From Methanothrix harundinacea 6Ac (lineage in GTDB: Archaea; Halobacteriota; Methanosarcinia; Methanotrichales; Methanotrichaceae), in contig NC_017527.1 in NCBI RefSeq assembly GCF_000235565.1, forward strand, positions 868,001-932,000: a stretch of DNA of 64,000 nucleotides, in the 5' to 3' direction. The notes below the pieces were generated by a model. The model had not been told where the DNA came from, ran no database searches, and saw only the letters and a list, made by a program, of their open reading frames with translations. Every line of letters starts with the position of its first letter. Within the stretch, counting starts at the first letter, position 1. Below are positions 23,965-50,628 of the stretch, one piece after another. The position numbers and the translations under genes were made by a program.

Positions 23965-24369
23965 ATGAGGCTCCGGGGGAAGGTCGCCTCCGGCCTGGGG
24001 GTGGGTCGGTACTACATCTCTCGGGAGGGTTACCGGAGGCAGTTCTCCGAGAGGCTCGGCCTCGACCCGATCCCCGGGACCCTGAACCTGAAGCTCGATC
24101 GCCCCTTCGTCCTCGACGACTCCGACCCCGATTCGATCAGGATCGAGGGCTTCATTGAAGAGGGAAGGTCCTTCGGCGCCTGCATCTGCCGCCCCGTCAG
24201 GATCGGCGGGATAAGGGGCGCCATCGTCCGGCCCGAGCGGACGAGCTACTCTGCGACCCTTCTGGAGCTCGTCGCGCCCGTCAACCTCCGGGAGGCCCTC
24301 GGCCTGTCGGACGGGGACGAGGTGGAGGTGGTTCTGGAGGGGCCGGGGGATAAAGAGAGGCGAAGATAG
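23965..24369 (+). CDS. ribK: CTP-dependent riboflavin kinase (archaeal RibK)
   Basis: Phosphorylates riboflavin to FMN using CTP rather than ATP. The 134 residues form the compact RibK (DUF120) barrel: MRLRGKVASGLGVGRYYISREGY, GLDPIPGTLNLKLDRP and the C-terminal APVNLREALGLSDGDEVEVVL. The N-terminal winged-helix domain found in some relatives (RbkR-type regulators) is absent. An ATG 17 bases upstream runs straight into a stop, so the ATG at 23965 is used. Confidence 0.95.
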   Translation: MRLRGKVASGLGVGRYYISREGYRRQFSERLGLDPIPGTLNLKLDRPFVLDDSDPDSIRIEGFIEEGRSFGACICRPVRIGGIRGAIVRPERTSYSATLLELVAPVNLREALGLSDGDEVEVVLEGPGDKERRR

Positions 24370-24744
24370 AATCCGGGGCCGAGGGGGGGGGGGGCGCGGG
24401 CCTTCAAGCTCCGGTTAGGGCGTGCGGGTACCATATGAAAAGACACAATGATAAATATATTCAGTTGTTATAGATTCTAATCATTATCTATAATATTAAA
24501 TATACATTTGTAGCTTGATTTATAAGATATATATTTATTCTCATTTTTATTTCCCATCCGAGAGATCCGCCGGAGGGAGAAGATCCTAAATGGTAGCAGT
24601 CCATAAATATCCCCAAGCCCTTTGCCATCTCCTCTCCAGCGCCATCGACGGATGGACTTATCTTTCTTCGATCCTCCGTCCTCACCAGGAACATTTATTA
24701 ATGATAAAATCCAAGGAACTTCAGTCTATATGGGAGAATGATTG
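24370..24744. other. AT-rich intergenic region before the giant-gene cassette
   Basis: 375 bases without a supported gene. From about 24430 to 24560 the sequence is almost entirely A and T, in sharp contrast to its surroundings. A TATA-like TTTATTAATG near 24693-24702 is a candidate promoter for the gene at 24745. No direct repeat or att site was spotted by eye. The segment marks the left edge of the unusual cassette. Confidence 0.6.
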
Positions 24745-25917
24745 ATGAGGCAAAGTCTTATTATATTATTAATATATATCATGCTCTACCCTAGCGCCCT
24801 GGCGATAGATATGTATTTTTCAGCCAGCAGCGGTCCCGGGAGCTCCGTCGCCATCATCGACTCCTACCAGGTCAGCGACGGCGTCGAGGTGAGGGGAGGT
24901 ACAAGAGCGAGCTTCGACCGCCTCGAGATCATCGACTCCCGTTGGATGGAGGGGGCGGGGTCGGCGGATGCCTTCCAGAGGTACGCCGGAAGCGGCGGAT
25001 ACTCCGGGATGAGCCGATTCTCGGCCGAGGACGCCCTGATCCGGATGGCCGGCGGTGCGAGCCTGAAGGCCGAGGGCTTCGGGGCATCTCAGTCGGCGGC
25101 CTTCGAGGGGAGCTACGGCCTTGCGGCGGTGGGGGCGACCGACCGGGAAGGGTGCTGGGCTGAGACCTCGGTGGAGGGGCGTGATGGCAGGACCAAAACC
25201 ATCATGACCACCGGTACTGGAAATAGCGCCTTTGCGACCATGGATGCGGCTTCCTCGGGGGATGAAACCCGCCTGGATATCACCTCCCACAGTCCCGCGG
25301 GCAGGTCATCGGCCTCCATCCAAAGCTGGATCTTCGAAGGCGATATCCTCTTCTCCGGGATGGGGCGCGCCGATCCAGAGGAGGCGATGGCATATCAGAG
25401 GTCGGAAGGTCAGGGCAGCGACGTGGGGATCACCACGAGCGGATTTCGCCACTATCCCGGGGTCGACTGGCTACCCGGGAACGACTACACCGAGATCTAC
25501 AGCCACGTCTCCGACGGATCCATGAGATCCGAATCCGCCGTCAGAACCGATGTCGATGGTTCCGCCTCCTGGCAGGATCTGATCGCCGCGGCGGGCGTGA
25601 TCAATCTTCAAAGCGAGTCGAAGGAGTTTCATGTCGGCGTCCCAGGATTCATCCGCGACGAAGAGCACAGCAGAGCGTCGGTCGATATCCAACCATCGGG
25701 CGGCACCGACGCGGAGTTTTCGGGGAGGATGACCGCCTCGATGGGAGCCTCCACCGGAGTGAAGCTTCAGGGGGTCCTGCGAGGGTCAATTCATGGAGAA
25801 GCTGAGGCAAACGATCGTACTGCGACCGTTGACACAGACGGCAACTGGCGTTTGCGGATGGAGTCGCAGACCGACGACGATTATGTCTGGATGGAGATTG
25901 ATACGGAGGAGATCTGA
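24745..25917 (+). CDS. exported beta-rich protein of unknown function
   Basis: 390 residues from the ATG at 24745; a TTG directly before it is an alternative. The signal peptide RQSLIILLIYIMLYPSALA is clear. The mature part is long, polar and Gly/Ser-rich, with alternating strands (GSGGYSGMSRFSAEDALIRM, VDIQPSGGTDAEFSGRMTAS) and no cysteine cluster or catalytic motif. It looks like an elongated extracellular beta-helix or filament-type protein. I do not recognise a family. Its stop is one base from the start of the small ORF at 25919, so it probably leads the operon of the giant genes. Confidence 0.8.
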   Translation: MRQSLIILLIYIMLYPSALAIDMYFSASSGPGSSVAIIDSYQVSDGVEVRGGTRASFDRLEIIDSRWMEGAGSADAFQRYAGSGGYSGMSRFSAEDALIRMAGGASLKAEGFGASQSAAFEGSYGLAAVGATDREGCWAETSVEGRDGRTKTIMTTGTGNSAFATMDAASSGDETRLDITSHSPAGRSSASIQSWIFEGDILFSGMGRADPEEAMAYQRSEGQGSDVGITTSGFRHYPGVDWLPGNDYTEIYSHVSDGSMRSESAVRTDVDGSASWQDLIAAAGVINLQSESKEFHVGVPGFIRDEEHSRASVDIQPSGGTDAEFSGRMTASMGASTGVKLQGVLRGSIHGEAEANDRTATVDTDGNWRLRMESQTDDDYVWMEIDTEEI

Positions 25918-25918
25918 G

Positions 25919-26137
25919 ATGGACGATCCTTTTCAGCCTCTCCCGGAGGATCTCGCGATCTCGTGCCAACATCGGAGGGCCTTTGGGCCGGGACCGGGGT
26001 CCTCTCCAGCTCTTGGTGTAGAATCTGGCAGGGCCGTTTTGGGGCCGGTCCCCGAACCCTGGAAGGGGCTGGTCGCTGCGATCGGGGCCGTGGCCGTGGA
26101 GCCATCGGGCCTTAAGGGGATGGTGTATCTCTTATGA
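25919..26137 (+). CDS. possible small protein, 72 residues
   Basis: An ATG at 25919 sits one base after the previous stop and has GGAGGAG 7 bases upstream, inside the end of that gene. Its TGA overlaps the ATG of the 1145-residue gene in ATGA. Coupling on both sides and a strong ribosome site argue for translation. The product is Pro/Gly-rich at first and ends in a mildly hydrophobic stretch (GLVAAIGAVAVEPSGLKGMV). No family is recognised. Its codon composition is not decisive, and it could be a chance ORF. Confidence 0.5.
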   Translation: MDDPFQPLPEDLAISCQHRRAFGPGPGSSPALGVESGRAVLGPVPEPWKGLVAAIGAVAVEPSGLKGMVYLL

Positions 26138-29100
26138 GCGACCAAGATTTCTTCAAAAAATTGTTCAGTATCGATGGATCCCATCTCTATGGTCACGGCG
26201 CGGAAGGGGGTGTATGGATCGGATATCTTCTATCCCAGGAGGGTGGCCCGATTGTCGGCCTCGGGGCATCATGGACGAATTTCTGGGGTGATAAGAAGAA
26301 GAGGATGAATGGAGGATCTTACTTATTCTGCGGCCGGGAGCCGGAGAAAACTGGGGATTTCCTCGCCAAATTGAAGGATTTTTTAAAGAATCTCAACGGG
26401 GTTTATCCAGACTATCATCGGTATGTATTCTGGTTTTCTGATCCAAACTCTGCAGGTCTGATGGGGCAGTATATACCGATTAAAAAGCTATCCAGCGATA
26501 AGGGACAGGTAGTCGGAATTAAGAGACAAGACTGGATCAAACTAAGAAATATACAATTTAGATTAGATCAAGGAGCAGTAATAACCCTCGATCAGAAGAA
26601 AGCAGAATTCCAGTTGACGAAGCCTGCCGGCGTAAATGTCAAGCTCTTCAATGAGATAGGTTCCAACAATTTCGGAGATGTGGGGGAGAAGGTCCGGATA
26701 TCCCTTACGGGAGCCGCTCCGGGCGCCATCAGTTTCGACGCCACTCTGAGGGCCGACGCAGAAAAGAACGAATTCAGGGCCGCCCGGGTCTGCCTCAAGT
26801 ACTTCTGCAAAGATGATTCGGGAGATATCCGTTCCCAGCCGTACGAGGTCTTCGCCCCCCTCGCCAAAGGAACGATGGTCCCCTTCAACGTCAGCCTCGA
26901 TCCGATCCACCCCCTCGACCGCCAGAGGTCGAAGTTCACCTTCGCCGGAACGCCCCCCACCTTTCCCAGCGGGTTTCGCCTCTCCCTCGGCCACGGAGTC
27001 ACCCTGACGCCGAGGGCGGAGAGATCGGGGCTCGTCTTCTCCGCCGATAAAACCAGACCAAAAATACCAGGAAAACCCCAGGAGGACTCCTTCTATCTCG
27101 CGCCCTCCGGGGATTTTGCCGTCGGCCTGGAGGATCCGGAGAAGTTCGCCCCCGCGGAAGGCCGCCCTCTCCCCCGCCTCCTCTGCGGCTTATCGGGGCT
27201 TGAGACGATCGGCTTTCACGCCGACGACATCTTGACCTTCGTTCCGGATGGTCCCGCCTTCGCCCCCGCCTTTCCCATAAAAGATGCATCCCTCGACGAT
27301 CCGGACCCCGCCGGGGAGGAGCCCCTCCTGGACGGGACTTTCACCACCTCCTGGATGCGGGTCAACCGCCCCGCCGGGGGAGAGGAGAACTTCTACTTCT
27401 CCCAGCCGGAGGGGGCGCCCCTATATGCCGGAGGTCAGGCTGCCGATCCCTCGGGGATCCTCGACCACCTCCAGAGGCCGTCGGCCCGCCTCGGGAGGGA
27501 GTTGTCCTACCCGATGGTGCCGTACGGGTTAGTGGCCGCCGATGGGGACGGCTTCAAAGAGGACGAGATCCCCAACTTCGAGCTCCAGATCATGAGCCCC
27601 TTCCGGAGGGGCGGGATCCTCTCCGGGGTCAAAGGCGGCGCTAGATCTCTATCGGTGGGCGAGACCACCCCTGCAGCCACCCCCCAGGGATTCATATCCC
27701 AGGTCTCGGCGGATGGGAGGTGGGATTCTCTCCTCATCGCCAGGAATGGGGAGGAGGCTCTGGAGTTCGAAGGGATCGACCCCGCCCTGCAGGCCGCCTT
27801 CTCGACCAACCAGCTCTTCCTGGTGGTCACCGACCCCGTCGCCGGGTGGGAGCTTGAATCGAAGGATCCCGCCGGATCGGCTTCAGGCAATACGGCCTTC
27901 AAGAACAGGATCTCCATCGGGGGCTGGCCCTTCGAGATCAACGTCGGGAAGGGCAACAGCTTCAACGATTACCGGAACGTCCTGATCTTCAAGTTCTGTG
28001 ATGGGACCCTGGCGGAGAGGGTGAGGAACCCAAAGCTATGGACCGATGCCGACGAGTTCAGCGACCCAAGATCTGGCGGCCCGGAGGCCGTCTCCCAGTG
28101 GCTCCAGGAGTACATCGCCGATGCGGCAGACGAGAAGGGGGATTACTTTAAGCATTTCAATGAAATAGTAAATGATGGGAGCTGGAACGGGGTCCTCGCC
28201 CTGAAGGTTGACATCGACCGCGACAAGTTTCCGCCTCAGCTGGAGGCGCTCATCGGCGCCATCGACGATCCGGAAGGCTTCAACGTCCATCACCTCGGGA
28301 TCGACGGGAGCAAGGTCGACGGGAGCAAGGTCGACATAACGACCAGCTCCCTCTTCGGGCTGATCTACTACTCCGACCCAGGCTACGACGGGTCGGGGCC
28401 CGTGCCGCCGGCGCCGGGGGCGGACTACGACTTCCGGGTCCTGACGATGAAGGTCCTCTTCGAGTCCTCGGCGATCAAGGACTTCGAGAGCCTCGCCCAG
28501 CTGACGATCAACAGGATCTTCGGCCATCCCGTCACCTCCACGGGGGACCCGGATAAGCTCTACAACGCCATCCTCTTCAACGGATCCTGTCAGCAGCACG
28601 GCGGCGAGACGGTCTACGTCCTCGACTCCGTCGGTGACAACTCCTTCTACCTCGATAGCAGCGTCCTGCGGAAGGTGGAGATCACAAAGGCCGATTTCAG
28701 CACCCTCGGAAATAACAATGGCATCGTCTCCTCGCGGTTTGGGCTGACGGGCTTCCTCGACTTCCACGTTCTGAAGGTGGGAAAGGGGGAGGAGACGGAT
28801 GAGGCTGGTGAAGAGGGCTGGCGCGAGGGGCCCGTCAGCTTCGATGTATTCTCCTTCGGTAGCGGTAGCGAGGAGGGAGAGGGCGAGTCCCGGCGAGGGC
28901 TCAGCTTCTCGGGGCTGGGGCTGGATATGACTTATCCTGCCTCCGAGAGCCAGAAGAAGGAGTTTCGCTTCGACCCCACCAAGATCGCCTTCAGCCTGGA
29001 GAAGAGCACCCCCCGGGACAAGTCGCTATTCCTGGAGTTCGGCCTCGCCTTCGAGGGCTTTGTGATCGGGGGTCCTGATAGCAAGCCCTCCGACGGTGGC

Positions 29101-29571
29101 TTCCTCCAGGTGAAGACCTCCCTCCGGCAGGCCGGCCTCTCCGGCCCCTGGCAGGGGCTCGCCTTCCGGCTGAACATGGGGACCCCCGGAGAGCTGGCGG
29201 GGAAGGTGAGCCTCACCTCCAGCCTCCTCCTCGCCTGGAGCGGCGGCGGCTCCGAGGGCTACAACGTCTTCATCGGGATCAAGCTCCCCGGCACCGGCGG
29301 CGGGGCGAAGCTCTTCGACCTCCAGGGGGTCCTCAAGCTCTCCATCGGGGACGTCAGGCTCTACTACGTCCGGGACCCGGAGGGGAAGAGGGAGTCCTTC
29401 CTCCTCACCCTCACCGAGATCGCCCTCAAGCTCCTGGGGATAGCGAAGCTTCCGCCGGGCGGCGCCACCAGCTTCTACCTCTTCGGAAACTCCGACCCCG
29501 GGGCCCGGGGGTGCGGCCTCGGGTGGTATGCGATGTACAACAGAACTAAAAAGAATATGGCGAAGGTATAA
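26134..29571 (+). CDS. giant protein 1 (1145 residues), unknown function
   Basis: There is no signal peptide. An N-terminal domain (about 1-135: SHLYGHGAEGGVWIGYLLSQ, YHRYVFWFSDPNSAGLM) precedes FRLDQGAV at about 142-149. A nearly identical motif occurs near residue 42 of giant protein 2. The rest is beta-rich with many Phe/Leu-Gly strands (LFLEFGLAFEGFVIGG, GLAFRLNMGTPGELAGKVSL), ending GLGWYAMYNRTKKNMAKV. A 15-base tandem repeat gives DGSKVDGSKVD near residue 725. The first 500 bases are AT-rich, the remainder GC-rich. It overlaps the small ORF and is followed, 19 bases later, by the EEP-like gene. No catalytic motif was found. It is probably structural. Confidence 0.85.
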   Translation: MSDQDFFKKLFSIDGSHLYGHGAEGGVWIGYLLSQEGGPIVGLGASWTNFWGDKKKRMNGGSYLFCGREPEKTGDFLAKLKDFLKNLNGVYPDYHRYVFWFSDPNSAGLMGQYIPIKKLSSDKGQVVGIKRQDWIKLRNIQFRLDQGAVITLDQKKAEFQLTKPAGVNVKLFNEIGSNNFGDVGEKVRISLTGAAPGAISFDATLRADAEKNEFRAARVCLKYFCKDDSGDIRSQPYEVFAPLAKGTMVPFNVSLDPIHPLDRQRSKFTFAGTPPTFPSGFRLSLGHGVTLTPRAERSGLVFSADKTRPKIPGKPQEDSFYLAPSGDFAVGLEDPEKFAPAEGRPLPRLLCGLSGLETIGFHADDILTFVPDGPAFAPAFPIKDASLDDPDPAGEEPLLDGTFTTSWMRVNRPAGGEENFYFSQPEGAPLYAGGQAADPSGILDHLQRPSARLGRELSYPMVPYGLVAADGDGFKEDEIPNFELQIMSPFRRGGILSGVKGGARSLSVGETTPAATPQGFISQVSADGRWDSLLIARNGEEALEFEGIDPALQAAFSTNQLFLVVTDPVAGWELESKDPAGSASGNTAFKNRISIGGWPFEINVGKGNSFNDYRNVLIFKFCDGTLAERVRNPKLWTDADEFSDPRSGGPEAVSQWLQEYIADAADEKGDYFKHFNEIVNDGSWNGVLALKVDIDRDKFPPQLEALIGAIDDPEGFNVHHLGIDGSKVDGSKVDITTSSLFGLIYYSDPGYDGSGPVPPAPGADYDFRVLTMKVLFESSAIKDFESLAQLTINRIFGHPVTSTGDPDKLYNAILFNGSCQQHGGETVYVLDSVGDNSFYLDSSVLRKVEITKADFSTLGNNNGIVSSRFGLTGFLDFHVLKVGKGEETDEAGEEGWREGPVSFDVFSFGSGSEEGEGESRRGLSFSGLGLDMTYPASESQKKEFRFDPTKIAFSLEKSTPRDKSLFLEFGLAFEGFVIGGPDSKPSDGGFLQVKTSLRQAGLSGPWQGLAFRLNMGTPGELAGKVSLTSSLLLAWSGGGSEGYNVFIGIKLPGTGGGAKLFDLQGVLKLSIGDVRLYYVRDPEGKRESFLLTLTEIALKLLGIAKLPPGGATSFYLFGNSDPGARGCGLGWYAMYNRTKKNMAKV

Positions 29572-29590
29572 ACGAGGGAGGGAACCGAGA

Positions 29591-30424
29591 ATGGTCTGCA
29601 TATTTCATCAGAATATGAGGGTTTTCGGAGGGGGTAGCCCTGTCCGGAATGGTGCATATAGCGGCGCATTCGCCGCAATAACCGCAGCACTTCCTCCAGG
29701 GACGGGGCCGATCTCCGTGGCAGGATTTACAGAAATTACGAATGGAGCTACGTCTAATGCAGCGTTAGGTCCTTTATGCGTTAACTTAGGAACCAATTTT
29801 TACGCCACTGTGGCATGCGGAGAGACGGCCTTAGCTCATGGGCCGGAGTTCATAGGGATCGGTATTAATGCAGCCTATACGATCGTATCTATAGGCAGAA
29901 TATTAATAAATTCAAATAATGGAATCAAATTAATTCATGATATCTCATCCGCTTTGCCGCCAACGCCTCTTTGGCGAAATGAGGTTCCTGGGGGATCCAC
30001 CCGTGACTATCGTGGGTTGGTATATGTAGTAATCCAAAATGCTGCGCTTAACAGAATAGCCGTCGGATTTCTACATAATTTGTACACATTTGAAGATCAA
30101 AAGATTCTTGTGATGGGGAATGTCCCATTGATGGCATTCTTAATGGCCAGCAACCCCATGATGCCCGTAGGAGGGCATATATACATAGGTGGCGATTTTA
30201 ATACTCTGCCTGATGTTAGTCGCGGAACAAGGCGAACTGGAATCGTTTATAATTACAGTGCGGGTGGAGCAACTACAATAAGTGGAAATATATACGATTA
30301 TTGGTATTCTGAGATACCCCATGGCGGCCCTCTTCCTGTGCCTTCTGTCCATTATAATACTATGAGTCCTGTATATCCGCCTGTAAACTTGTCGGATCAC
30401 GCCGCCATAACTTTAACAATATAA
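29591..30424 (+). CDS. endonuclease/exonuclease/phosphatase (EEP)-fold protein
   Basis: 277 residues after a GGGAGGGA ribosome site. The residues of the DNase-I/EEP superfamily appear in order: Asn8 in FHQNMR, Glu48 in AGFTEI, a GFLHN strand at 159-163, GGDFN at 200-204 and SDHAAI at 268-273 (catalytic His270). Members cut nucleic acids or dephosphorylate sugars and lipids; the substrate here is unknown. There is no signal peptide. The gene is markedly AT-rich compared with the GC-rich bodies of the two giant genes it separates, so it may have arrived separately. The low similarity to known members leaves room for an inactive or altered enzyme. Confidence 0.72.
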   Translation: MVCIFHQNMRVFGGGSPVRNGAYSGAFAAITAALPPGTGPISVAGFTEITNGATSNAALGPLCVNLGTNFYATVACGETALAHGPEFIGIGINAAYTIVSIGRILINSNNGIKLIHDISSALPPTPLWRNEVPGGSTRDYRGLVYVVIQNAALNRIAVGFLHNLYTFEDQKILVMGNVPLMAFLMASNPMMPVGGHIYIGGDFNTLPDVSRGTRRTGIVYNYSAGGATTISGNIYDYWYSEIPHGGPLPVPSVHYNTMSPVYPPVNLSDHAAITLTI

Positions 30425-30469
30425 TTATATTAAAATTAATTGATTATAAATTGCCTGGAGACATGAACT

Positions 30470-33400
30470 ATGACCCTCAACGATCTGGCTAGCCTGCTGA
30501 GAGGTAAGACTGAAGTCGACCTCAATGAGGATCTGTTGAAGAAGGCGAATCTTAAACCGCCCGATGGCTTTGATCAGCTGCTCCGCAGATCCTTTAAGCT
30601 GGATCAAGGTGCCTATCTGAAGGTCGTCCTGCCCGACGAGATCCCAAGCCCTGTCAACGATACGTTCGTCCTGACGGCAAAGGCATCAGTATTACATATA
30701 ATAAATATTAGATTAACAACAACGTTCTGTTCTTACAAAGATCTGGTAGATGTCGCCTTCTTCGCCGAAGGAGAAGATCTTCGCTTCGAGACTAACTTCC
30801 CATATTTGAAGGAATACATCGACTTTGTTAGGAAGTCTTTGAGTTACAGTTTCAGCTTCTCGACTTATGAGGACTTTTATAAATTTGGAATATCGCCAGA
30901 TCCAAAAAGGCCCATCTCTCCGAAGGATCTTCTTTCCCTCATCCCCCTCAGGGACTGGAGCGAAATGCTTCCAGGAGAGCTGCAGAGCTATTTCAACGAG
31001 CTATCCTTCAAGGAGTTCTTGGTGGCGATCCAGTCAGGCGACGATCCGGTGGTCAACTATACAGATTTCACCATTGGGACCAGGGAAGGCGGAGCGGTCT
31101 GGAAGCCCTTTGACTGGTTTGAGATGGACAGTTTCGATATCAGATGTATCATCCCCACCCCAAAAGCGAAGAGCCGTACTATGATCTTCCTGGGGGCGGA
31201 ATTTGTACTATTTCCAGAGATATTTGAAGGTAAATTCATAGCTCAGATCACCAGCGACCTGGCGATCATGGCCAACTTTAAAAGCGATGGACCATCGGAA
31301 GGGGTCAGCTTCAACAAGATCGTAAAGTATATCACCAATGATGCGATCATAATACCAGAGGATGTTGCTTCTTTTGTCTTTACGGATTTTTATATCTCGA
31401 TAGACGTGAAGAACCGCAGCTATTCCCTCGGAGCGTCGGCCAACGCCAGCCTGAAGCTGATCGAAACAAGAATCTCCCTAAACGAAGTGAAATTCCAGAT
31501 AGATGCCAGCCTCCCAAAAGACCTCCCTCCCAGATATACGGGATCGATCGTCGGAACCTTCTCCATCGAGGAATTCCGCATCTTCGTATCGGCGGAGTAT
31601 GGAGGAGCCGAAGAGGGCTGGACCTTCATCGGCCGGACCTTCCCCGGAGTGGTTATCCCCCTCGCCACGATCTTCAAAAATTTGATGAAAGAAATCCCCG
31701 GGTTGGAGGATTTCGAAAAGTTCTTCCCTGCGCCGGAGAGCCTCGATGTCAACAAGTTGTCTCTCACCGCCCGCCCAGCCCACGCCCAGAATAAGGGCTC
31801 TTATATATTCGACTGCGGAGTGGGATTGAAGGGGGTGAGGATTGATCCGATCGGAACCATAAAGGCCGATTCAAACCTGAATATAAAATATGATGATCGC
31901 CTTCATGCCTCCTTCGGAGTCGAGCTTACCCTGGAAGACCTGAATATAGTCGCCATCGTAGGCTACGATTTTGATAAGAAAGCCTTGACTCTAACATGGG
32001 ACGGCGTCACCGCTGCCATAACTGAAAAAAATGGGCAGAAGATAGCCTCCCTGACCCTTACGAAGTATTCCCTGGGCGAGATGATCGAGACCTTCGTCTC
32101 CTGGTTTTCAGGACAGAAGTTCGGCCTCGCCTCTCCTTGGAATATCCTCAACCAGATCAGCCTCGCCTCATTCAATCTCGATTTCAACTTTACCACTAAA
32201 CAGGTCTCTTTCCACTACAAGATCGGCCCCTTGAATCTGGGCCTTGCGAAGATTCAGAGGATCTCCGTCACCTACGAGCCCACCGGCGAGAACAAGGGCG
32301 TCAATGTAGAGCTGGAGGGTTCCTTCCTCTGGGGCGTCGATCCTAAGCATGGAGACGACAAGAAGCTGAAGTGGGATGCCACAAAGCCCGATGATGCCCC
32401 GATGCCCCCCGGCGCCGGGAACAAGTACTTCGACCTCCGCCTCCTCGCCCTCGGCCAGCACGTCGAGGTCGAGGGGATCACGGACTGCAAGTCGGTGGGA
32501 GATGCGATCAAGAAGATCGAAACTCTCCCGGTCCCCTCTCCCTCTCAGCTTCCCGCCGTCGGCTTCAGCCCCGAAAGCTCCTGGATGGTGGCCGCCGACT
32601 TCGGCATCCTGAAGGTCGACGAGACCCCCAAATACCCCCACTCCCCCCAGGCGGCCCCCAAATACTTCCTCTCCCTCCAGACGGTCTTCAACGACCCCAA
32701 CATCTACGGCCTCCGGGTCGCTCTCGCGGGACCGGCGGCGAAGGTCCTGGCCGGCCTCGACTTCGAGATAATGTACCGCCGGATCAGCGAGACGGTGGGG
32801 GTCTACCAGGCCCAGATCCAGCTCCCCGACAAGATGCGCAATTTCCAGATGGGGGCCTTCAACATCACCCTCCCGGTCTTCGCCATCGAGCTCTACACCA
32901 ACGGCGACTTCAAGGTCGACGTCGGCTTCCCCTGGAACCTCAACTTCTCCCGGTCCTTCACCATCCAGGCCCAGATCTCCTTCGTCCCCGTCATTGGCTC
33001 CGGCGGGATCTACTTCGGAAAGCTCAGCGGTGCCACCACCAACCGGGTCCCCGCCGTCACCAACGGGAACTTCAACCCCGTCATCGTCTTCGGCCTGGGG
33101 CTGCAGCTGGGGGTCGGAAAGTACCTCGAGAAGGGGATCCTCCGGGCCGGGATCAGCCTGACCCTGGTGGGGATCCTCGAGGGGGTCATCGCCCGGTGGA
33201 ACCCCTACGATGCCGGAAAGGACGTCGACTACTACTACTGGCTCCAGGGGACCATCGGGATCATGGGCAGGCTCTTCGGGAGCGTCGACTTCGGGATCGT
33301 CAAGGCCGAGGTGAACGTCACCCTCTCCCTCGTAGCCCAGATAACTTACGAATGCTATAAGGACATACCCATCTCCGTCATCGCCTCCGTCGACGTCTCC

Positions 33401-36400
33401 CTATCGATCAAGATCAACTGCGGCCTCTTCAAGATCACGATACACTTCAGCTTCTCCGCCCGGATCAAGGAGACCTTCACCATCAAAAACTCTGGCACCC
33501 TGCCCTGGACCCTCGCCGACGGCTCCGAGGCGGCCCTCCGGTCGAGGCAAGACCTCAGGCTGAGGGCCCCAACGGCCATCGCCTCCTCCGGGGTGGGGGA
33601 TGGCGGGCTGGTGATGAAGTGGGATAACTACCTGCCGGCCGAAGAGAAACAGATCCTCATCTGCCACTTCGCCCCGGTCATCTCCGCCTCGACCGACGAG
33701 ATCCATGGCGCTACAGGTCCCCACGCCTGCTACGTCCCGATGCTCCTCCTGGAGACGAGGTCGGCATCCGACGGTCCGGGGCTGGAAGAGGGGACGACGG
33801 GGATCACATCCTTCGAGCGGCTCTGCAACCACGTCCTCCGGTGGACGGTCGCCGCGGCCCTGGACCGGGGCATGACCAAAGACCAGATCGACGGCTACGC
33901 CGTATCCGATGACGAGCTCCTCATGATCATGAATAGCCTCTCCGATCGGGTGGTCACGATGCCTATCGAGGATGCCGATGCAGCCGACTTCATGCGGGAC
34001 CATTTCACTCTGCAGGTGGCATACAGGACAACGGCCAACGATGGGGGAGCCGGAGGGGCGGACGCTGCGGTATTCCCGATGCCGCCAGCCCTGAGGCTGA
34101 GGGTCCCCTCCTACCACGGTTCTAAGGATCTGGAGTGGAAGTTCTCCGAGTTCAACGCCGTGGACGAAAAATATCTTGACGCCCTGAGGACGCGGTTCGA
34201 CGAGCTCGCGGTCCAGGTGGAAGAGGAGATGGGAGGGGGCTCGGACCGGCGCCTTCTTTTGGGGGACGAACCAGAACCCGCCGGCCGATCGGTCGCCTCC
34301 TTCGTCTTTGCAGATTACTTCCTCCTCCTGGCCCGCCAGATGGTCCAGAACGCCAGAGACGGCCTCCGGAACTTCCAGTACCTCCTCGGAACGTCTAAGG
34401 AAGGAAAAGCATCCGATGAGATGGTCGACGATATCGTCGGCTGGATAAACGGGCATATGGCTCCAAAGGGGGACGATCCGATCGGCGATCTCCCGCCGCC
34501 CTTCACCGCCGCGGATTTATTCGAGGCGAACGGCCAGCATCTCCTGAACCCCCAAAAGGACCTCGAGATCCAGGGCGGGACCCACCGGATCGGGCCTTCC
34601 GATACCCTATCCTCCATCGCCGAAAAGGGACCGGTTGAAGTCATAAAGCTTGCCGAAGCTAACTTTGGCGAGAAGATCCTGACGGCAGGGATCGCCCTCG
34701 CTTGCGAAGGAGAGCCGGACTATGTTATCCGGGATGAGGACACCTTAGAGTCGATCTCCAAAGATCTCTTCGCCGGTTCGATGAAGGACCTTCTCGATAG
34801 ATCGGACCTGGCAACCAAGCCCGGGGTCCTGGCTGCCTCTGCCCTTCTGGCCCTCCCACCGCGATTCCACACCACCAAAGAGGGGGAGAGCCTGGAGAGG
34901 GTGGCTGCCGAGTATGGGATCCCGGTCCGGCGGCTGGCGGAGGCCGAGGCCAACCTGAAGGTTCCTGGCCTCTTCTCGACCTCCGATGGGATTGAGGCCC
35001 GGTGCCTGAACGTCCCCCACCTCCAGCGGTTCCGGGTCTCCGAGCTGATCGCTGAGATCCTGAGGACGATGGGGCTATCCCACCTCTCGGGGATCGCCTC
35101 CCGGTACCTCCTCCACGGGATGAGGCTCCCGACGGAGGGGATCGAGTTCTGCGACGAGGCCTCCGATTGGCCGGAGGAGGCCGGCCTCTACGCCCTCACC
35201 GGCCAGCAGTTCCCGATCCCCGCCCTCAACGAGGACGACTTCTCCTTCTCCCTGGCGAGAGACGAGGGCCTCGAATGGATAGACTTCCTGGGCGGTGCGA
35301 GCAAGACGGAGCTATCGGTCGTCATTGCGGGGGGCGATCGGGATCGGGTGGTGGAAGTCCAGAAGGCCGTCCGAGACGGGATCGTCCCCGGGATGAGAGC
35401 CCTGGGGCCGGAGCCGGTCTCCCGATCCCAGCCGATGACCTACCCCTTCCCCTCGGCTACGGTCTGGACCCATCCCGGGAGGGTCTCCCTCCCCCACGAC
35501 GACGGCTCTGGCGAGGGGCAGTCCCTCCGGATCTGGTCGTTGCCGACGAGCCTGGTGGAGCTGGCCGAATCGGGGGACGGAGAGTTGAAGCCTTTGATCT
35601 CCGTCCAGGTCGGGACCTACAACGAGGCGACCTCGAATATGGATCAGGTCCCCGTCAGTTCGTACGGCTGGGGGACCCTTATCGAGGTGGGGATCAAGAG
35701 GATCGAGCCGGTGGGAGAGAGCCCCTCGACCCGGACGACCTACGAGCTGGCGGGGGCGAACGAGCGGGGGATCCTCCTCCTGGAGCGGCTCCTCCGGGAG
35801 ATTCAGGGCTCAGATGAGCCGATCGGAGATATCCGGATCCTCTATCGTCCGAGCCCCCCAGGCAGCGTAGATCCCTATCTTCAGTCGGATGGGGACAAAG
35901 ACCTCACCATCTTCATCAGCCAGGTGAACCTTACGACCGAGACCCGACCACCAGATCTCCTCCAATGGGGCCGGGGAGCTCTGGCAGAGGAGGTCCCGAA
36001 GCGGCACAGGACGGCGGGTTGCCTGGACACCGCCTACGACTTCGTCAGGATGCTCTGGGAGAACAGCATCACACGCTCCGGAGGATACTACCTCTACTAC
36101 AGCTCCGGCGAAGACTCGGGCCTCCCGGAGAGCATATTCAACGAGAAGGGCGATGCGACCATATCTCTCCTCTTCATCTATGGAAAGCCCGGGGTCTCCG
36201 GGGTGGAGGGGGTCGGAAGCTACGTGAACTGTGCCGTCACCGGAGACCCGATCGATCCGTCGAGGTCCGTGGTCTATGGGAGGGCGGAACCCTTCGACCT
36301 CGACCACATCCCGAAGGCGACCGAGTCCCTGGACGAGATGGCCCGGAGGTATTATACAACCCCCATCGAGCTGGTGGAGGATCACCCGTCTCATCCCCTG

Positions 36401-39400
36401 GCTGATGGGAGGTCGGTGGTCGTCTCCGCTGGAACTTACATGGTCAGCCCCATCAGGACCAGCCCAGGCGGCAGGCTGGCGGATATCGCATCCTACTTCA
36501 ATACCACGGAGGAGGCGATCAAAGAAGCGAACCCCCGAAGGGCCTTTGAATGCAAACCCGGCCCCGAGGATTCCCTGGCCACCATCGCCGATCGTTACCA
36601 GATCACTCCGTCTCAGCTGGCCGAGGCAAACGCCGACCACCCCCTGGCGGAGGGCAAGCCGGTCAAAATCTCCGAGAGGACCTACGAGGTGAGGCCTGCG
36701 GGGGTTCCCCCCGGAGGCAGACTTGAGGATATCGCGTCCTACTTCAATACTCCAGGGGAGGAGATCATAAAGGCGAACCCCGAGATCGATCCCTGGCCCG
36801 AACTCCTCGAGCCGGGTTTGGTGATCCGGATCCCGGAGATCGAAGTATTGATCGGCCCGGGGACTGAGACCTTCGCCGACCTCACATCCTTTTACGGCAC
36901 CACCATCGCCGACTTCGCAGAAATTAACCGATCGACGAAGGGGCTTTTGAGCCCGGCAGCCCCACTTCATCTCCTGGTCCCGTATGATGCCATCCACCTC
37001 CCGAAGATCACGGCACCAATCAGAACCGACGGTTGCGGGAAGACCTTCGCCGACCTCGCCGCCTTCTACGGCTGCTCCGCCGCCGACCTGGCCGAAGATA
37101 ACAGGTCTGTCGCGGGCCTTTTGAGCGCAGCTCCGATGAAGATCGGAGGCGGCCCCAAGGTCCGGACCGCCACCGTCCCCGCCGGGGCCGTGGCCATCGG
37201 GGCGAGACGGGTCGTCGCCGCCGAGGTCCCCGATCTCCCGGGGGATGGGGGCGATTACGGCCAGCTCTACCTCCAGCAGACCTTCTCGATGCTGGGATAC
37301 CGGGTCCTTCAGAACCTCGACTTCCACGGGAGCAAGAGGGGGCTTCCGATGGGGCCGGTGGAGACGGCGGACCGACGGGAGTCGAAGATCCGGGCGGCTG
37401 CGCCTCCCAGGGCCCCAGGCGAGCTCTGGGAGTACCACCAGGCCCTCCCCTACCCCCGCTTCGCGAAACACGGCGGCTCCGAAAGGGGCGCCGGCATCCC
37501 CGACCCCAGCGAGAGCCCCTACGCCGGGATCGGGGGCCTCCTCCAGGTGAACTTCGGCTGGCAGGACATCTTCGGGAACGTCGCCAGAACGCCGCTATCC
37601 GATCCGTCCCTGGACAAGACTGCGCCGGCAAACAACCCGCCGATTCTGCTGGGGTACACCGACGAGCTGATCGGCCTCGGCAGGTGGCCGAGCGTCTCCA
37701 GCTCTTACCAGGTCCTCAAGGATGGAGCGGGGACGAGGCTGACCATCACCCTCGCCTTCGACCCGGAATATTACCTTTCTTCAGACGAGAGTGGGATCGT
37801 CGGGGAAGATCCGAAGAAAGATAAGGCGTCCCAAGACCTGCGAGTCTACAGGCAGCTTTACTATCAGCTCTTGAATACCACCGGATCCGATGAGGAGACG
37901 ATTAAGATCTCCATAGAGGCGAGCCTCCTGGAGGAGGCATCCCTCGAGCTGGCGAAGGATCAAATCCAGGGCCTCCGGGGCTGGATCGAAGATATCTACC
38001 AGTTCCTCTCCGACCTCGCCCAGGGCAGAGCGGCCTCCGCCAAGCCTCCTATGGATCACCTGATCCAGCTCGCCATAGCCCTGGGGGCGGCTGAGGAGGG
38101 ATACGCTTTGAACTCTGCCCAGATCTTCGAGCTGACGGTGGCGATGAGGATGGAGCGGCCCGTCTCGGCGATCCAGGCCGAGCTGAAAGAGGTGGCAGGG
38201 GTCCGATCTTCCTCGACCAACATCCCGCCGGCGATCGATAATGGCGGTTCCGGCGATCCCTATTCCCTGAAGAGCTTCGCCACCCGGTTCGAGGAGGCCC
38301 TCAGCCTCCCCGAATCGTTCCAGCTGAAGGTCGCCAACGGGACCGATAGGAGGCGGATCGGAACCTCCTCGACCTCGAAGTCTATCTGGGCGGTCCGCCT
38401 CGGCGCTGGCGGGGGCGAAGGGATCTCTTATGCCGTGAAACATCCCCGCGCTCCGAAGATATTCGCACCAAGGCCGATCTCCAACAGGCCAGAGTCGCGA
38501 TCGAAAGTGCCCATCAAAAAGTATGCTTCCGATGACGAGATCCATCTCGACTTCGTTGGAGTCGACATGGACGTGTGGGTCCGGGAGTTCCTGGCGGCGG
38601 TCGACAGGTTCCTGACGCCGGAGTATCTCTCCCCGGCCCGTCTGCTGATGAAGGATGATGAAGAGGAGATCATCGAGAAGCTTTTGGGTTATAAAAAATC
38701 GCTGGCCAGCTCCATAAGCGATCTCGCGTCTCCGGTCTATTTTGGCGACTCCGATGACGGCCTGGCAGAGGCGAAAGAGGCGTATAGACAGCAGCTTCTG
38801 GTCCAGCTCTCCAACGCCTACGCCACCGACGCCGTGATCCAGTTCGATGTGGAGGTCTACGCCGATATCCCCCATCCGGGCTCCTCCAGCCCGCCGCGTC
38901 TCTTCGGCGTTCCGGCTCCAGAAGATGGCGGAGAGTCTCAGAACGGGGACGTATCCCTGACGGCGGCGAAGGTCCTCCTCGAAAAGGGATCGAAGAAGCT
39001 GACGTTCCTCCTCCAGACTAAGGCGACGAAGGAAGAGGACGATCCATCGACCCCGATGAGGAGCTACATCCCCCTCGACCTATCTTTCCAGGGGTCGATG
39101 ATCGAGCACGAGATCGTCAGGCTTCTGGAGATAGCGGGCTATGAGGGGGGCTACGAGGCGTCGTCGTGGCTCTCCTTCGTGACGCCGCCGGCAGGAGACT
39201 TCTCCCTGACGAAGCCCCTCGGCTCCTTCGACGTCCCCCTCGTCCTCCGGGCCATCCCGACGGCTCCATCGATGATCGGCCAGGCGGGGCTTTCGCAGCT
39301 CGAAGAGATCACCCCCTCCAAGATCGACGAGGCGGTGATCTGGGACTACTCCTTCGACTACAGCCAGAGCCGCCACGAGCCCCAGGACGAGATCTCCTTC

Positions 39401-40585
39401 CGGGTGGAGTTCAACCTCCAGCCCGGGTTGAGGGCTCTATCCTCACCCATCGACGACCTCTTCTCCGCCCTGGCAGAGTTTGTGACCGTCTACCCCGATG
39501 TGGCGAAGGACCTCGACGGCGTCCTGCGGAAGATCGACGGAAAGGCGGAGAAGGGAGAGCGGGAGAGGGCGTGTAAGGCCCTCGAGTTCTTTTCCGACCT
39601 CGTCGGCGGCGTCGCCGACGCCTGGAAGTCGTCGAAGGGAGCCGAATTTGCCGGAGGCTATGGAGGGGGCAAAGTTGCCGACGGCTGCAAGTTCAGCATA
39701 AGAGAAAAGTCGAAGAGGATTGACTACCCCGACGGAACCCCGGTGGAGGCCCTGATGATCAGAGTAAAGGGGGATTGGCTCTCCTCTGAAATCTCCCCAC
39801 CGATGGTCTTCATCAAGGAGTACTATACCGTCCTTGATACCGACTTGGAGGACGGCTCCGAGGTCCGATACCTGTTCAAATCGAAGGATGGGGAGTACCT
39901 CCCCGCCTCCAGGGGGCGGGACATTCCGGGCCGCACCGTCATTCTCCCGGATCTCAACGTCTTGGAGAGGCAGAGCGCCCGGGCCGTCGCCAGCCTCAGC
40001 CGTAACGAGGAGCTCGTCCGCGAAAAGAAGACCGCCGATCCCTTCGTATATAGAACCTCGGAGATCCAGTTCGCAAACCCGCACCGACCGAAGCTGGGAT
40101 GGGACGATCCGATAGATATCTCCCTCGTTGGATCTCCGGAAGGAGAGGCTGTTCGTCGTCCCCTGGCAGAGCATCTCTCTTCGTTCTTCGAGAACCTCTT
40201 CAAGAACCGGACGGCCGGTTCGAAGGATCTCTTCACCCTCCAGCTGGAGTGCATCTATGAGTACCACGTGAACCCCGGGCTACCGAGGGTGACGATGCCG
40301 GTCCTCTTCGTCCCCTCCTCTCCCTTCGACGGCGACGGACCAGCAGTCTCCCTGGGGGGATCCTCCGGCGGCCAAGATCTGTCCCGCTCCTTCGTCGGCA
40401 TCCTCTCTCAGGGTATCTGGCGGTGGTTCGAAGAGAACTCTCCCCATGAGGCGGAGAAAGGGACCCTTAAGTTCGGCCTGACCCTTCTATCGGATCTTAC
40501 GGAGGAGTCGATGCCGCTCCTCCGGCTCACCGATCTGAGCCTGCCCCTCGATCGGGTGACAGACCTGCCGAAGGCGGATCGCTGA
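30470..40585 (+). CDS. giant protein 2 (3371 residues) with LysM-like repeats
   Basis: One uninterrupted ORF starting at an ATG with TGGAGA upstream and no signal peptide. FKLDQGAY near residue 43 matches giant protein 1. Residues about 100-1030 are beta-rich with Gly-alternating strands (FGLGLQLGVGKYLEKGILRA). About nine LysM-like units follow, near 1371, 1417, 1466, 1950, 1990, 2027, 2072, 2126 and 2189, for example EDSLATIADRYQITPSQLAE. The last 1100 residues are mixed. The middle recalls giant bacterial and fungal proteins annotated DUF6603, but this is from memory. The first roughly 1.8 kb is AT-richer than the rest. LysM is uncommon in archaea, which lack bacterial peptidoglycan. Function unknown. 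Confidence 0.85.
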   Translation: MTLNDLASLLRGKTEVDLNEDLLKKANLKPPDGFDQLLRRSFKLDQGAYLKVVLPDEIPSPVNDTFVLTAKASVLHIINIRLTTTFCSYKDLVDVAFFAEGEDLRFETNFPYLKEYIDFVRKSLSYSFSFSTYEDFYKFGISPDPKRPISPKDLLSLIPLRDWSEMLPGELQSYFNELSFKEFLVAIQSGDDPVVNYTDFTIGTREGGAVWKPFDWFEMDSFDIRCIIPTPKAKSRTMIFLGAEFVLFPEIFEGKFIAQITSDLAIMANFKSDGPSEGVSFNKIVKYITNDAIIIPEDVASFVFTDFYISIDVKNRSYSLGASANASLKLIETRISLNEVKFQIDASLPKDLPPRYTGSIVGTFSIEEFRIFVSAEYGGAEEGWTFIGRTFPGVVIPLATIFKNLMKEIPGLEDFEKFFPAPESLDVNKLSLTARPAHAQNKGSYIFDCGVGLKGVRIDPIGTIKADSNLNIKYDDRLHASFGVELTLEDLNIVAIVGYDFDKKALTLTWDGVTAAITEKNGQKIASLTLTKYSLGEMIETFVSWFSGQKFGLASPWNILNQISLASFNLDFNFTTKQVSFHYKIGPLNLGLAKIQRISVTYEPTGENKGVNVELEGSFLWGVDPKHGDDKKLKWDATKPDDAPMPPGAGNKYFDLRLLALGQHVEVEGITDCKSVGDAIKKIETLPVPSPSQLPAVGFSPESSWMVAADFGILKVDETPKYPHSPQAAPKYFLSLQTVFNDPNIYGLRVALAGPAAKVLAGLDFEIMYRRISETVGVYQAQIQLPDKMRNFQMGAFNITLPVFAIELYTNGDFKVDVGFPWNLNFSRSFTIQAQISFVPVIGSGGIYFGKLSGATTNRVPAVTNGNFNPVIVFGLGLQLGVGKYLEKGILRAGISLTLVGILEGVIARWNPYDAGKDVDYYYWLQGTIGIMGRLFGSVDFGIVKAEVNVTLSLVAQITYECYKDIPISVIASVDVSLSIKINCGLFKITIHFSFSARIKETFTIKNSGTLPWTLADGSEAALRSRQDLRLRAPTAIASSGVGDGGLVMKWDNYLPAEEKQILICHFAPVISASTDEIHGATGPHACYVPMLLLETRSASDGPGLEEGTTGITSFERLCNHVLRWTVAAALDRGMTKDQIDGYAVSDDELLMIMNSLSDRVVTMPIEDADAADFMRDHFTLQVAYRTTANDGGAGGADAAVFPMPPALRLRVPSYHGSKDLEWKFSEFNAVDEKYLDALRTRFDELAVQVEEEMGGGSDRRLLLGDEPEPAGRSVASFVFADYFLLLARQMVQNARDGLRNFQYLLGTSKEGKASDEMVDDIVGWINGHMAPKGDDPIGDLPPPFTAADLFEANGQHLLNPQKDLEIQGGTHRIGPSDTLSSIAEKGPVEVIKLAEANFGEKILTAGIALACEGEPDYVIRDEDTLESISKDLFAGSMKDLLDRSDLATKPGVLAASALLALPPRFHTTKEGESLERVAAEYGIPVRRLAEAEANLKVPGLFSTSDGIEARCLNVPHLQRFRVSELIAEILRTMGLSHLSGIASRYLLHGMRLPTEGIEFCDEASDWPEEAGLYALTGQQFPIPALNEDDFSFSLARDEGLEWIDFLGGASKTELSVVIAGGDRDRVVEVQKAVRDGIVPGMRALGPEPVSRSQPMTYPFPSATVWTHPGRVSLPHDDGSGEGQSLRIWSLPTSLVELAESGDGELKPLISVQVGTYNEATSNMDQVPVSSYGWGTLIEVGIKRIEPVGESPSTRTTYELAGANERGILLLERLLREIQGSDEPIGDIRILYRPSPPGSVDPYLQSDGDKDLTIFISQVNLTTETRPPDLLQWGRGALAEEVPKRHRTAGCLDTAYDFVRMLWENSITRSGGYYLYYSSGEDSGLPESIFNEKGDATISLLFIYGKPGVSGVEGVGSYVNCAVTGDPIDPSRSVVYGRAEPFDLDHIPKATESLDEMARRYYTTPIELVEDHPSHPLADGRSVVVSAGTYMVSPIRTSPGGRLADIASYFNTTEEAIKEANPRRAFECKPGPEDSLATIADRYQITPSQLAEANADHPLAEGKPVKISERTYEVRPAGVPPGGRLEDIASYFNTPGEEIIKANPEIDPWPELLEPGLVIRIPEIEVLIGPGTETFADLTSFYGTTIADFAEINRSTKGLLSPAAPLHLLVPYDAIHLPKITAPIRTDGCGKTFADLAAFYGCSAADLAEDNRSVAGLLSAAPMKIGGGPKVRTATVPAGAVAIGARRVVAAEVPDLPGDGGDYGQLYLQQTFSMLGYRVLQNLDFHGSKRGLPMGPVETADRRESKIRAAAPPRAPGELWEYHQALPYPRFAKHGGSERGAGIPDPSESPYAGIGGLLQVNFGWQDIFGNVARTPLSDPSLDKTAPANNPPILLGYTDELIGLGRWPSVSSSYQVLKDGAGTRLTITLAFDPEYYLSSDESGIVGEDPKKDKASQDLRVYRQLYYQLLNTTGSDEETIKISIEASLLEEASLELAKDQIQGLRGWIEDIYQFLSDLAQGRAASAKPPMDHLIQLAIALGAAEEGYALNSAQIFELTVAMRMERPVSAIQAELKEVAGVRSSSTNIPPAIDNGGSGDPYSLKSFATRFEEALSLPESFQLKVANGTDRRRIGTSSTSKSIWAVRLGAGGGEGISYAVKHPRAPKIFAPRPISNRPESRSKVPIKKYASDDEIHLDFVGVDMDVWVREFLAAVDRFLTPEYLSPARLLMKDDEEEIIEKLLGYKKSLASSISDLASPVYFGDSDDGLAEAKEAYRQQLLVQLSNAYATDAVIQFDVEVYADIPHPGSSSPPRLFGVPAPEDGGESQNGDVSLTAAKVLLEKGSKKLTFLLQTKATKEEDDPSTPMRSYIPLDLSFQGSMIEHEIVRLLEIAGYEGGYEASSWLSFVTPPAGDFSLTKPLGSFDVPLVLRAIPTAPSMIGQAGLSQLEEITPSKIDEAVIWDYSFDYSQSRHEPQDEISFRVEFNLQPGLRALSSPIDDLFSALAEFVTVYPDVAKDLDGVLRKIDGKAEKGERERACKALEFFSDLVGGVADAWKSSKGAEFAGGYGGGKVADGCKFSIREKSKRIDYPDGTPVEALMIRVKGDWLSSEISPPMVFIKEYYTVLDTDLEDGSEVRYLFKSKDGEYLPASRGRDIPGRTVILPDLNVLERQSARAVASLSRNEELVREKKTADPFVYRTSEIQFANPHRPKLGWDDPIDISLVGSPEGEAVRRPLAEHLSSFFENLFKNRTAGSKDLFTLQLECIYEYHVNPGLPRVTMPVLFVPSSPFDGDGPAVSLGGSSGGQDLSRSFVGILSQGIWRWFEENSPHEAEKGTLKFGLTLLSDLTEESMPLLRLTDLSLPLDRVTDLPKADR

Positions 40586-40741
40586 GAACGGGGGGAAATC
40601 CGGGTTCGGTCCTTCCTCCTTCTTGCTCCTTAAGAGGCCCCGGCAAAATCGAACCTCCGCCGACCTCGGCCAATCCCGTCTCGACTCCGTCGAAAAGGTA
40701 AAATGCCTGTACATCTCTGGACACCGATGGAGGAGATTGTC

Positions 40742-48872: not shown

Positions 48873-49877
48873 ATGGGATGGAAGGGAACAGTTCGGAGTA
48901 TAGGCGCTGCATCTCGTAGGATGGAACGCGAATCGAGGAGGAGAAGTCGTGAACTTGAAAGGCAGCAACATCAAATTGAGAAAATGCAGGAGCTAGAACG
49001 AGCTACTTATGAAGTTGAAGTATATGAGAATTATATAGAACGACTTCAATCAATGCACAAAGAATGCAGCGAAACTTGTGACTGGGGAGAAATAAAATTG
49101 ATGAAGCCGCCAGAACGCCCTAACAAGTTGAGAATGCACGAATCAGAAGCACAATCTGCACTGGACAATTATAAGCCTGGACTCCGTGATAAGCTATTAA
49201 AGAAATCTGAAGACTTACGTCAGAAATTGGTAAACGAAGTCGAATATGCAAAAGAGACTGATAGAAGAGAATATCAAGAAGCGTTGGAACAGCACGCTTT
49301 AAATTATTCGGACTGGGAGGTATCGATTAAAGTCGCAGAAAAAATGATTCGAGGCGATCTCAAAGCATATTTCGACGCAATAGAACAGGCAAATCCATTC
49401 GAGGAACTTAAGGGGGTCGGTTCAGGCATAGAATTCAAGATGGGTAAGGAATCCATCATGAATGCCATATTGCATGTAAATGGCGATCATGTCATTCCTT
49501 CTGAGGCGAAGACCCTATTAAAAAATGGGAAACTCTCTGTAAAACCTATTCCAAAAGGGAAGTTCTATGAAATTTATCAAGATTATGTATGCAGTAGCGT
49601 TTTGAGGGTAGCAAGAGAGTTCTATGCGCTCTTGCCTGCGGATATGTTGATAATTACTGCCATGACCGATTTGCTGAATACTAAAACGGGTCACATCGAG
49701 GAACAACCGATACTGTCAGCTGTAATCCCAAGGAAAACGCTAGAACGTCTTAATTTTGAGACATTAGACCCGTCCGATTCCATGGGGAATTTTGTTCACC
49801 AGATGAATTTCAAAAAGACAAAAGGGTTTTCTGCTATTGAGCCCATCACACCAGAATCCTTAGATTTGGAAACATGA
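48873..49877 (+). CDS. coiled-coil protein of unknown function
   Basis: 334 residues; the ATG follows GAGGTGA. Residues about 15-65 form a highly charged coiled coil (RRMERESRRRSRELERQQHQ), and a second helical stretch is at about 105-165. A globular C-terminal part contains FYEIYQDYVCSSVLRVAREF and LLPADMLIITAMTDLLNTKT. No signal peptide or catalytic motif is visible, and I do not recognise a family. Base composition is much more AT-rich than the neighbouring host genes, a sign of transfer. It is followed 22 bases later by a lipoprotein gene with a strong ribosome site. Confidence 0.78.
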   Translation: MGWKGTVRSIGAASRRMERESRRRSRELERQQHQIEKMQELERATYEVEVYENYIERLQSMHKECSETCDWGEIKLMKPPERPNKLRMHESEAQSALDNYKPGLRDKLLKKSEDLRQKLVNEVEYAKETDRREYQEALEQHALNYSDWEVSIKVAEKMIRGDLKAYFDAIEQANPFEELKGVGSGIEFKMGKESIMNAILHVNGDHVIPSEAKTLLKNGKLSVKPIPKGKFYEIYQDYVCSSVLRVAREFYALLPADMLIITAMTDLLNTKTGHIEEQPILSAVIPRKTLERLNFETLDPSDSMGNFVHQMNFKKTKGFSAIEPITPESLDLET

Positions 49878-49899
49878 ATGGTATGAGGAGGAGAATTAA

Positions 49900-50466: not shown

Positions 50467-50491
50467 ATAGAGATGATAAATCATCTCTATT
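50466..50491 (+). terminator. strong hairpin terminator
   Basis: AATAGAGATGA (50466-50476) and TCATCTCTATT (50481-50491) form a perfect 11-bp stem with a TAAA loop. The stem starts at the last base of the lipoprotein stop codon and is followed by CTTATTTCGTTTTC. Confidence 0.75.
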
Positions 50492-50628
50492 CTTATTTCG
50501 TTTTCAATTGACCGTTCAATATAATGTCCATTTAGGACTGCTTAGGGTTTTAACCGAAACGTTTTTCTAATATGTTGTACGTTATTTTTTATCATCTAAT
50601 TGTAAGCGTATATTGGAGGGAAGATACG

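Follow-up and report, generated by a model that had tools for sequence, protein, structure and literature searches.

The window, a stretch of 64,000 nucleotides from the genome of Methanothrix harundinacea 6Ac (2,571,034 bases in two contigs), contains a cassette of giant-protein genes. Five coupled open reading frames (ORFs) were described here in the initial annotation, and all lie on the + strand exactly where it had placed them. Comparison with related loci indicates that the conserved unit consists of three positions: Giant 1 (G1; 26134–29571, + strand, 1145 aa), a variable enzyme slot, occupied in the window by an enzyme of the endonuclease/exonuclease/phosphatase (EEP) fold (29591–30424, + strand), and Giant 2 (G2; 30470–40585, + strand, 3371 aa). 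For close pairs of homologues, dN/dS was 0.05–0.15 for G1, G2 and the EEP; the value of 0.5 for Methanosarcina G2 is inflated by an exchanged block (see below). The homologues of all three are thus under strong purifying selection. Because of this selection, and because other phyla contain strong relatives of G1 and G2, the ORFs are evidently more than chance reading frames.

G1 represents a new family with a predicted beta-rich multidomain fold. The AF2 model is good (pLDDT 83.7, pTM 0.70), and G1 gave no match in the PDB by sequence or fold and no fold match in the viral library. G2 can be divided into four parts. The N-terminal ~520 residues (30470–32032, + strand) form a predicted beta-meander that is compositionally foreign and belongs to the exchangeable slot. 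The core that follows (about residues 521–1020; 32033–33529, + strand) is the most conserved part, with 37–60% identity across the family, and has long amphipathic beta-strands. The middle part (about residues 1371–2159; 34580–36946, + strand) bears LysM (Pfam, 1.1e-19), and the C-terminal part (36947–40585, + strand) is conserved to about residue 3345. The model of G2 residues 1–1080 is moderate (pLDDT 73.9, pTM 0.45) and shows a long beta-meander whose last six strands comprise 18–23 residues each, three of them with a near-perfect alternation of hydrophobic and polar residues. Foldseek leads for G2 were LptD, large beta-barrels and apolipoprotein B; at a TM of about 0.1 these are rejected as homologues and kept solely as a hint of an amphipathic sheet. 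The region upstream of the core is also matched, on its own, by proteins of about 1490–1630 aa (G250:C3:357884-359008, G297:C7:53031-54032 and G241:C7:190167-191411), which appear to belong to a wider beta-meander family outside the cassette.

LysM in G2 is the only Pfam family above cut-off among the cassette proteins of the window (70.5 bits against a cut-off of 20.9), as the LysM lead of the initial annotation had anticipated, and neither giant is matched along its length by a known unrelated system. The same region gave spore_safA-type and lysM matches in the NCBIfam and PHROGs searches, and LysM is also present in G2 of loci L012, L033 and L062. Beyond LysM, nothing noteworthy was found for these proteins in NCBIfam, PHROGs or PADLOC-DB. 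A relation to DUF6603 (PF20248) had been suggested; the 502-position profile gave no match at E<=1 in proteins P0001–P0004 of the window and none at E<=10 genome-wide, and this lead is abandoned. A shared (R/K)LDQGA motif had likewise been noted near the N-termini. The letters are present in both giants, but they are conserved in the homologues of neither, and the profiles of the two giants are unrelated, so the motif is no mark of kinship. LysM apart, both giants would therefore constitute previously unclassified families. A literature search on DUF6603, LysM giants and related terms found no description of the system in titles or abstracts; it covered open-licence papers, so that an existing account may have been missed.

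The EEP retains the five catalytic motifs (QN, TE, LH, GDFN and SDH) in order, when aligned with the slot EEPs of other loci, and its catalytic site is predicted to be intact, in keeping with the earlier assignment to this fold. Its nearest relative is encoded on a Calothrix plasmid (41–43% identity). Since homology to this protein in the blastp alignment begins at residue 22, a start at 29591 is more likely than one at 29528, which would give 298 aa. Alone, the window EEP gave no Pfam match, while slot EEPs elsewhere match PF03372 with E values of 1.3e-5 to 2.4e-4 and the slot protein of L055 exceeds the Pfam cut-off for Exo_endo_phos (PF03372). The window protein belongs to a small separate EEP subfamily. 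In Calothrix sp. NIES-4101 (plasmid3, L010:984-12479) its closest relative lies within six large or medium genes, none with a Pfam match, and G1 and G2 are absent.

The pairing of G1 and G2 was found in every sample searched. In separate tblastn searches of plasmids, both matched the same eight plasmids, from Alpha- and Betaproteobacteria, Cyanobacteriota, Bacillota and Actinomycetota, in which they are always near neighbours on one strand. A single-protein scan of the GTDB species genomes found no relatives. With the conserved part of G2 as the query, 116 relatives were obtained, of which 80 were kept; the successful search used an alignment of five relatives, one of nine being too diverse. 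G1 lies just upstream of G2 at every locus with enough flanking sequence, the few exceptions ending at a contig edge. As these loci had been chosen by G2, the G1 and G2 profiles were also run separately on 149 genomes of one family. Full-strength matches to the two occurred in the same 6/149 genomes, always adjacent (hypergeometric P 7e-11, ignoring relatedness), and three further proteins weakly matched the upstream part of G2 alone. Within the class to which the window belongs, G1 was found in 3/238 genomes. In total, at least 88 loci (one duplicate removed) represent 12 named phyla, 11 bacterial and one archaeal, and 12 of the loci are unplaced or plasmid-borne. As judged by this distribution, the cassette has spread horizontally across bacteria and archaea, plasmids included.

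The slot between G1 and the G2 core was surveyed at 88 loci. It holds an EEP at 16 loci besides the window, a protein of the metallo-beta-lactamase (MBL) fold at four, and at one locus an HNH protein that falls just under the Pfam cut-off. A ~560-aa module, designated GHQ, occurs at 51/88 loci, either as an N-terminal fusion to G2 or, in three, as a separate gene. None of the 88 loci combines EEP, MBL or HNH with GHQ (Fisher P 1e-10, without correction for relatedness). GHQ loci are accompanied by an upstream family of two-repeat beta-sandwich proteins, often in tandem (46 loci), of which none was found at EEP or MBL loci or in the window; antibody matches to this family are weak Ig-like pattern matches and were discarded. 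GHQ was also considered as a GT-B glycosyltransferase; this was rejected, the hhalign probability against MurG/UGT being <1% with a positive control at 99.7%, and the likeness is a motif lead only. Other occupants were seen. In six Bacteroidota loci (L086–L091) the slot holds two small mutually related proteins of 138–154 aa and G2 begins directly at the core. At L069:5797-6930 and L070:5839-6915 (Fibrobacterota, Lachnospiraceae) a slot protein of 358–377 aa without a Pfam match stands beside a divergent GHQ-like N-terminus of G2.

Several comparisons bear on the exchange of slot content. A quick tree of the G2 core, with some long-branched rows, has a scrambled taxonomy and requires at least five changes for the EEP state; the window groups with GHQ loci, yet its own EEP comes from a separate subfamily. 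The exact place of the window in this tree lies on an open fork. Two Methanosarcina genomes (L014/L017) are 97% identical in the DNA around the cassette, while about 3.0 kb between the end of G1 and approximately codon 990 of G2 is unalignable and is preceded directly by a stretch of 77% identity (one of these G1 genes contains a 190-base run of N). This exchanged block falls within the terminal (3') part of G1 and the ORF of G2; it contains no other gene-sized ORF and leaves no room for a separate immunity gene. The Chitinophaga loci L048/L053 display the same pattern at the protein level (26% versus 87% identity), and among close pairs as a whole, divergence tends to be highest in the N-terminal module. 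In the window, the end of G1 has a GC3 of 0.88, the EEP gene 0.39, codons 1–521 of G2 about 0.60 and the rest of G2 0.81. The best change point falls at codon 521, the start of the conserved core (lnL gain 51). As this seam spans both the EEP gene and the N-terminus of G2 and ends at codon 521, the two were probably brought together into an older cassette. The alignments thus demonstrate, at the level of DNA and protein comparison, that slot content is exchanged by recombination. The earlier view of an undescribed system with an enzymatic partner is upheld by the co-occurrence of G1 and G2, by the fixed slot and by the lack of any match over the length of either giant; the exchange site and the mobility of the cassette had been missed.

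Whole-cassette mobility is further suggested by the insertion site. In four sister species (genomes G003, G004, G007 and G008) ribK is followed by serA within about 66–190 bases, and the entire segment between these genes in the window (24338–40690) is missing. Sister genome G006 has the tail of P0001 joined in a fusion to the final 68 codons of G2, followed by serA; barring misassembly, this is the remnant that an internal deletion left of the same cassette. The cassette as a whole is thus mobile and horizontally acquired. P0001 (24742/24745–25917, + strand) codes for an exported beta-rich protein of 391 aa with a predicted Sec signal (signal-like h-region) and is part of the inserted segment. 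It has no counterpart at other cassettes, and its relatives occur only in Methanothrix-type genomes, as proteins encoded elsewhere in them; it is for this reason left out of the conserved unit and regarded as a lineage-specific surface protein. The small ORF ahead of G1 is doubtful. The longer version (25793–26137, + strand) has no Pfam match, and the ORF would have at most 72 codons (about 25919–26137, + strand), with an ATGA overlap with the G1 start; no relatives of this 72-codon ORF were detected. The proposed coupling of all five genes therefore does not hold. If the remaining genes were likewise unrelated giants lying together by chance in this genome, as the behaviour of P0001 and the small ORF might suggest, the strict linkage of G1 and G2 over 12 named phyla would be unexplained; for G1, the slot and G2 this explanation is refuted and is given practically no weight. 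Elsewhere in the window, a low-GC patch (48873–50940; about 0.41–0.48) carries two ORFs of 334 and 188 aa without a Pfam match and a zinc-ribbon/TM2 protein.

LysM and giant proteins are found in phage tail-like or contractile injection particles, and one IMG/VR contig classed as viral (L092) carries G1 together with a shorter, possibly split G2. The cassette could on these grounds be part of such a particle or a prophage structural module. However, 50,697 phage records contain no match to it, PHROGs gave only the weak lysM match and the viral fold library none, and a phage origin is unsupported. Sheath, tube, baseplate and terminase are absent from the 25 most frequent of 120 Pfam families among the flanking genes sampled, and no sheath, tube or baseplate genes occur at annotated plasmid loci. 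This explanation is considered very improbable.

Signal-like segments, called by a simple hydropathy rule, were found in none of 85 G1 and 17 EEP sequences and in only two of 89 G2 sequences, both weak, as well as in 15/83 upstream beta-sandwich proteins and one MBL protein. A few of the 104 flanking genes sampled encode ricin-type lectins or M57 peptidases, and one subgroup has a LamG protein ahead of G1. Some cassettes border on collagen or kelch proteins; in Chitinophaga and Mucilaginibacter the neighbouring proteins (L048:1684-3228, L053:2016-3278 and L071:17927-19852) carry collagen repeats and, in one case, kelch repeats as well.

The anatomy of the cassette, i.e. the linkage of the pair, the slot, the exclusivity of its occupants, their exchange and the spread, is well supported. 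Target and delivery are inferred. The interpretation that we favour, tentatively and with less than even confidence, is a modular effector system that moves horizontally and has a constant chassis of giant proteins. G1 and G2 would bind each other to form a constant complex acting as a carrier, scaffold or translocation device, which may package or deliver the enzyme of the slot. This enzyme would be exchangeable, being an EEP phosphoesterase or nuclease here and an MBL-fold hydrolase, an HNH protein or GHQ elsewhere. The long amphipathic beta-sheet of G2 may contact lipid or membrane, and LysM, with lectin-, LamG- or collagen-type neighbours at some loci, could direct the complex to surfaces after release by lysis or a non-classical route. 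The target of the enzyme would lie outside the producer's own lineage. In the single case resolved in DNA, no immunity gene was exchanged along with the module, which argues against competition among bacterial kin and for a distant target, e.g. eukaryotic or viral, or a harmless modifying activity. The cassette may accordingly be a new class of modular effector machine that crosses the domains, present in bacteria as well as in methanogenic archaea, in which two unrelated giants form a constant delivery complex and a single site allows block exchange of the enzyme with no accompanying immunity gene; this formulation, too, is advanced as a possibility and falls short of an even chance.

Several points weigh against an effector function. 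No delivery apparatus, toxin signature or immunity gene was recognised at the cassette, and neither giant matched a known pore or carrier fold (TM about 0.1). GHQ, the commonest occupant of the slot, has no assigned function, and the flanking genes sampled are mostly unrelated housekeeping genes. M. harundinacea, a methanogen living on acetate, has no obvious prey or host. Finally, exchangeable enzymes are known also from anti-phage defence and envelope biosynthesis, and both must be taken as serious rivals.

In an intracellular anti-phage or anti-plasmid defence system, G1 and G2 would serve as a giant platform for sensing or effector action, with interchangeable nuclease-type effectors in the slot. 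The apparently cytosolic proteins, the patchy spread, the plasmids and the nuclease-like folds (EEP, MBL, HNH) are consistent with such a role, which needs no immunity gene. In Azospirillum lipoferum 4B the cassette lies between type III-B CRISPR and SIR2 genes, and in Lysinibacillus near E2/MPN/nucleotidyltransferase genes. However, PADLOC-DB models gave no match, neither defence nor phage or secretion families are enriched among the 25 most frequent flanking Pfam families, and Pfam detected no ATPase, TIR or similar signalling domain in G1 or G2. The signal-like segments on some upstream beta-sandwich proteins and on the MBL protein also do not fit, and LysM would be unusual in a cytosolic sensor. 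A role in defence is therefore rather unlikely.

Alternatively, the cassette may encode a cell-surface machine for lipid or polysaccharide assembly, in which lipid or glycan is handled on the amphipathic sheet of G2 and the slot enzyme alters the product, so that the surface chemistry varies. The long, strictly alternating strands of G2, the low-TM Foldseek leads, LysM and a GT-B-like motif in GHQ point this way, and surface variation would likewise drive module swapping. Against this, G1 and G2 have no membrane anchor or signal, the same cassette serves archaea, Gram-positive and Gram-negative cells despite their differing envelopes, HNH and EEP occupants fit poorly, and the comparison of GHQ with the MurG/UGT profiles was not significant despite the strong positive control. 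Surface assembly is thus regarded as unlikely.

Whichever function applies, the modular effector system favoured here included, the giant families shared by at least 88 loci of 12 named phyla are, LysM apart, foreign to Pfam, NCBIfam, PHROGs, PADLOC and PDB and are kept together over the bacterial–archaeal divide. Block exchange of enzymes at one site is a usual sign that an organism is in conflict with another. The cassette is a concrete, testable way into a system, of effector, defence or surface type, that has so far gone unrecognised, and is among the few modular systems of this kind known to include methanogens.

The DUF6603 giants resemble G1 and G2 in being large and beta-rich, although no tested protein of the window matches their profile, and the EEP superfamily shares the five catalytic motifs with the slot protein, which stands apart as a separate subfamily. 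Like extracellular contractile injection systems, the cassette combines LysM proteins, a spread over archaea and bacteria and a diversity of effectors, but sheath, tube and baseplate genes are lacking in its sampled neighbourhoods. Tc toxins consist of several giant subunits with an exchangeable enzyme part and are patchy and mobile, as is the cassette. In contrast to these, P0001–P0004 match no TcA, TcB/TcC or RHS/YD-repeat family in Pfam or NCBIfam, the giants have no corresponding fold, the enzyme lies upstream of G2, at its N-terminus or as its own gene, and archaea are included. Polymorphic toxins of the CDI, RHS and MafB type similarly have a constant carrier and an exchangeable enzyme, with HNH and other nuclease-like folds, that is replaced by recombination. 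In the cassette, however, the module is exchanged without a linked immunity gene, as in the Methanosarcina block, there is no C-terminal toxin tip or secretion-linked N-terminus, and the carrier families are unrelated. On these comparisons the cassette appears to be a member of neither group; it follows a logic like theirs because it lacks classical export signals, keeps a constant giant pair, exchanges its enzyme as a block and has spread broadly by horizontal transfer, plasmids included.
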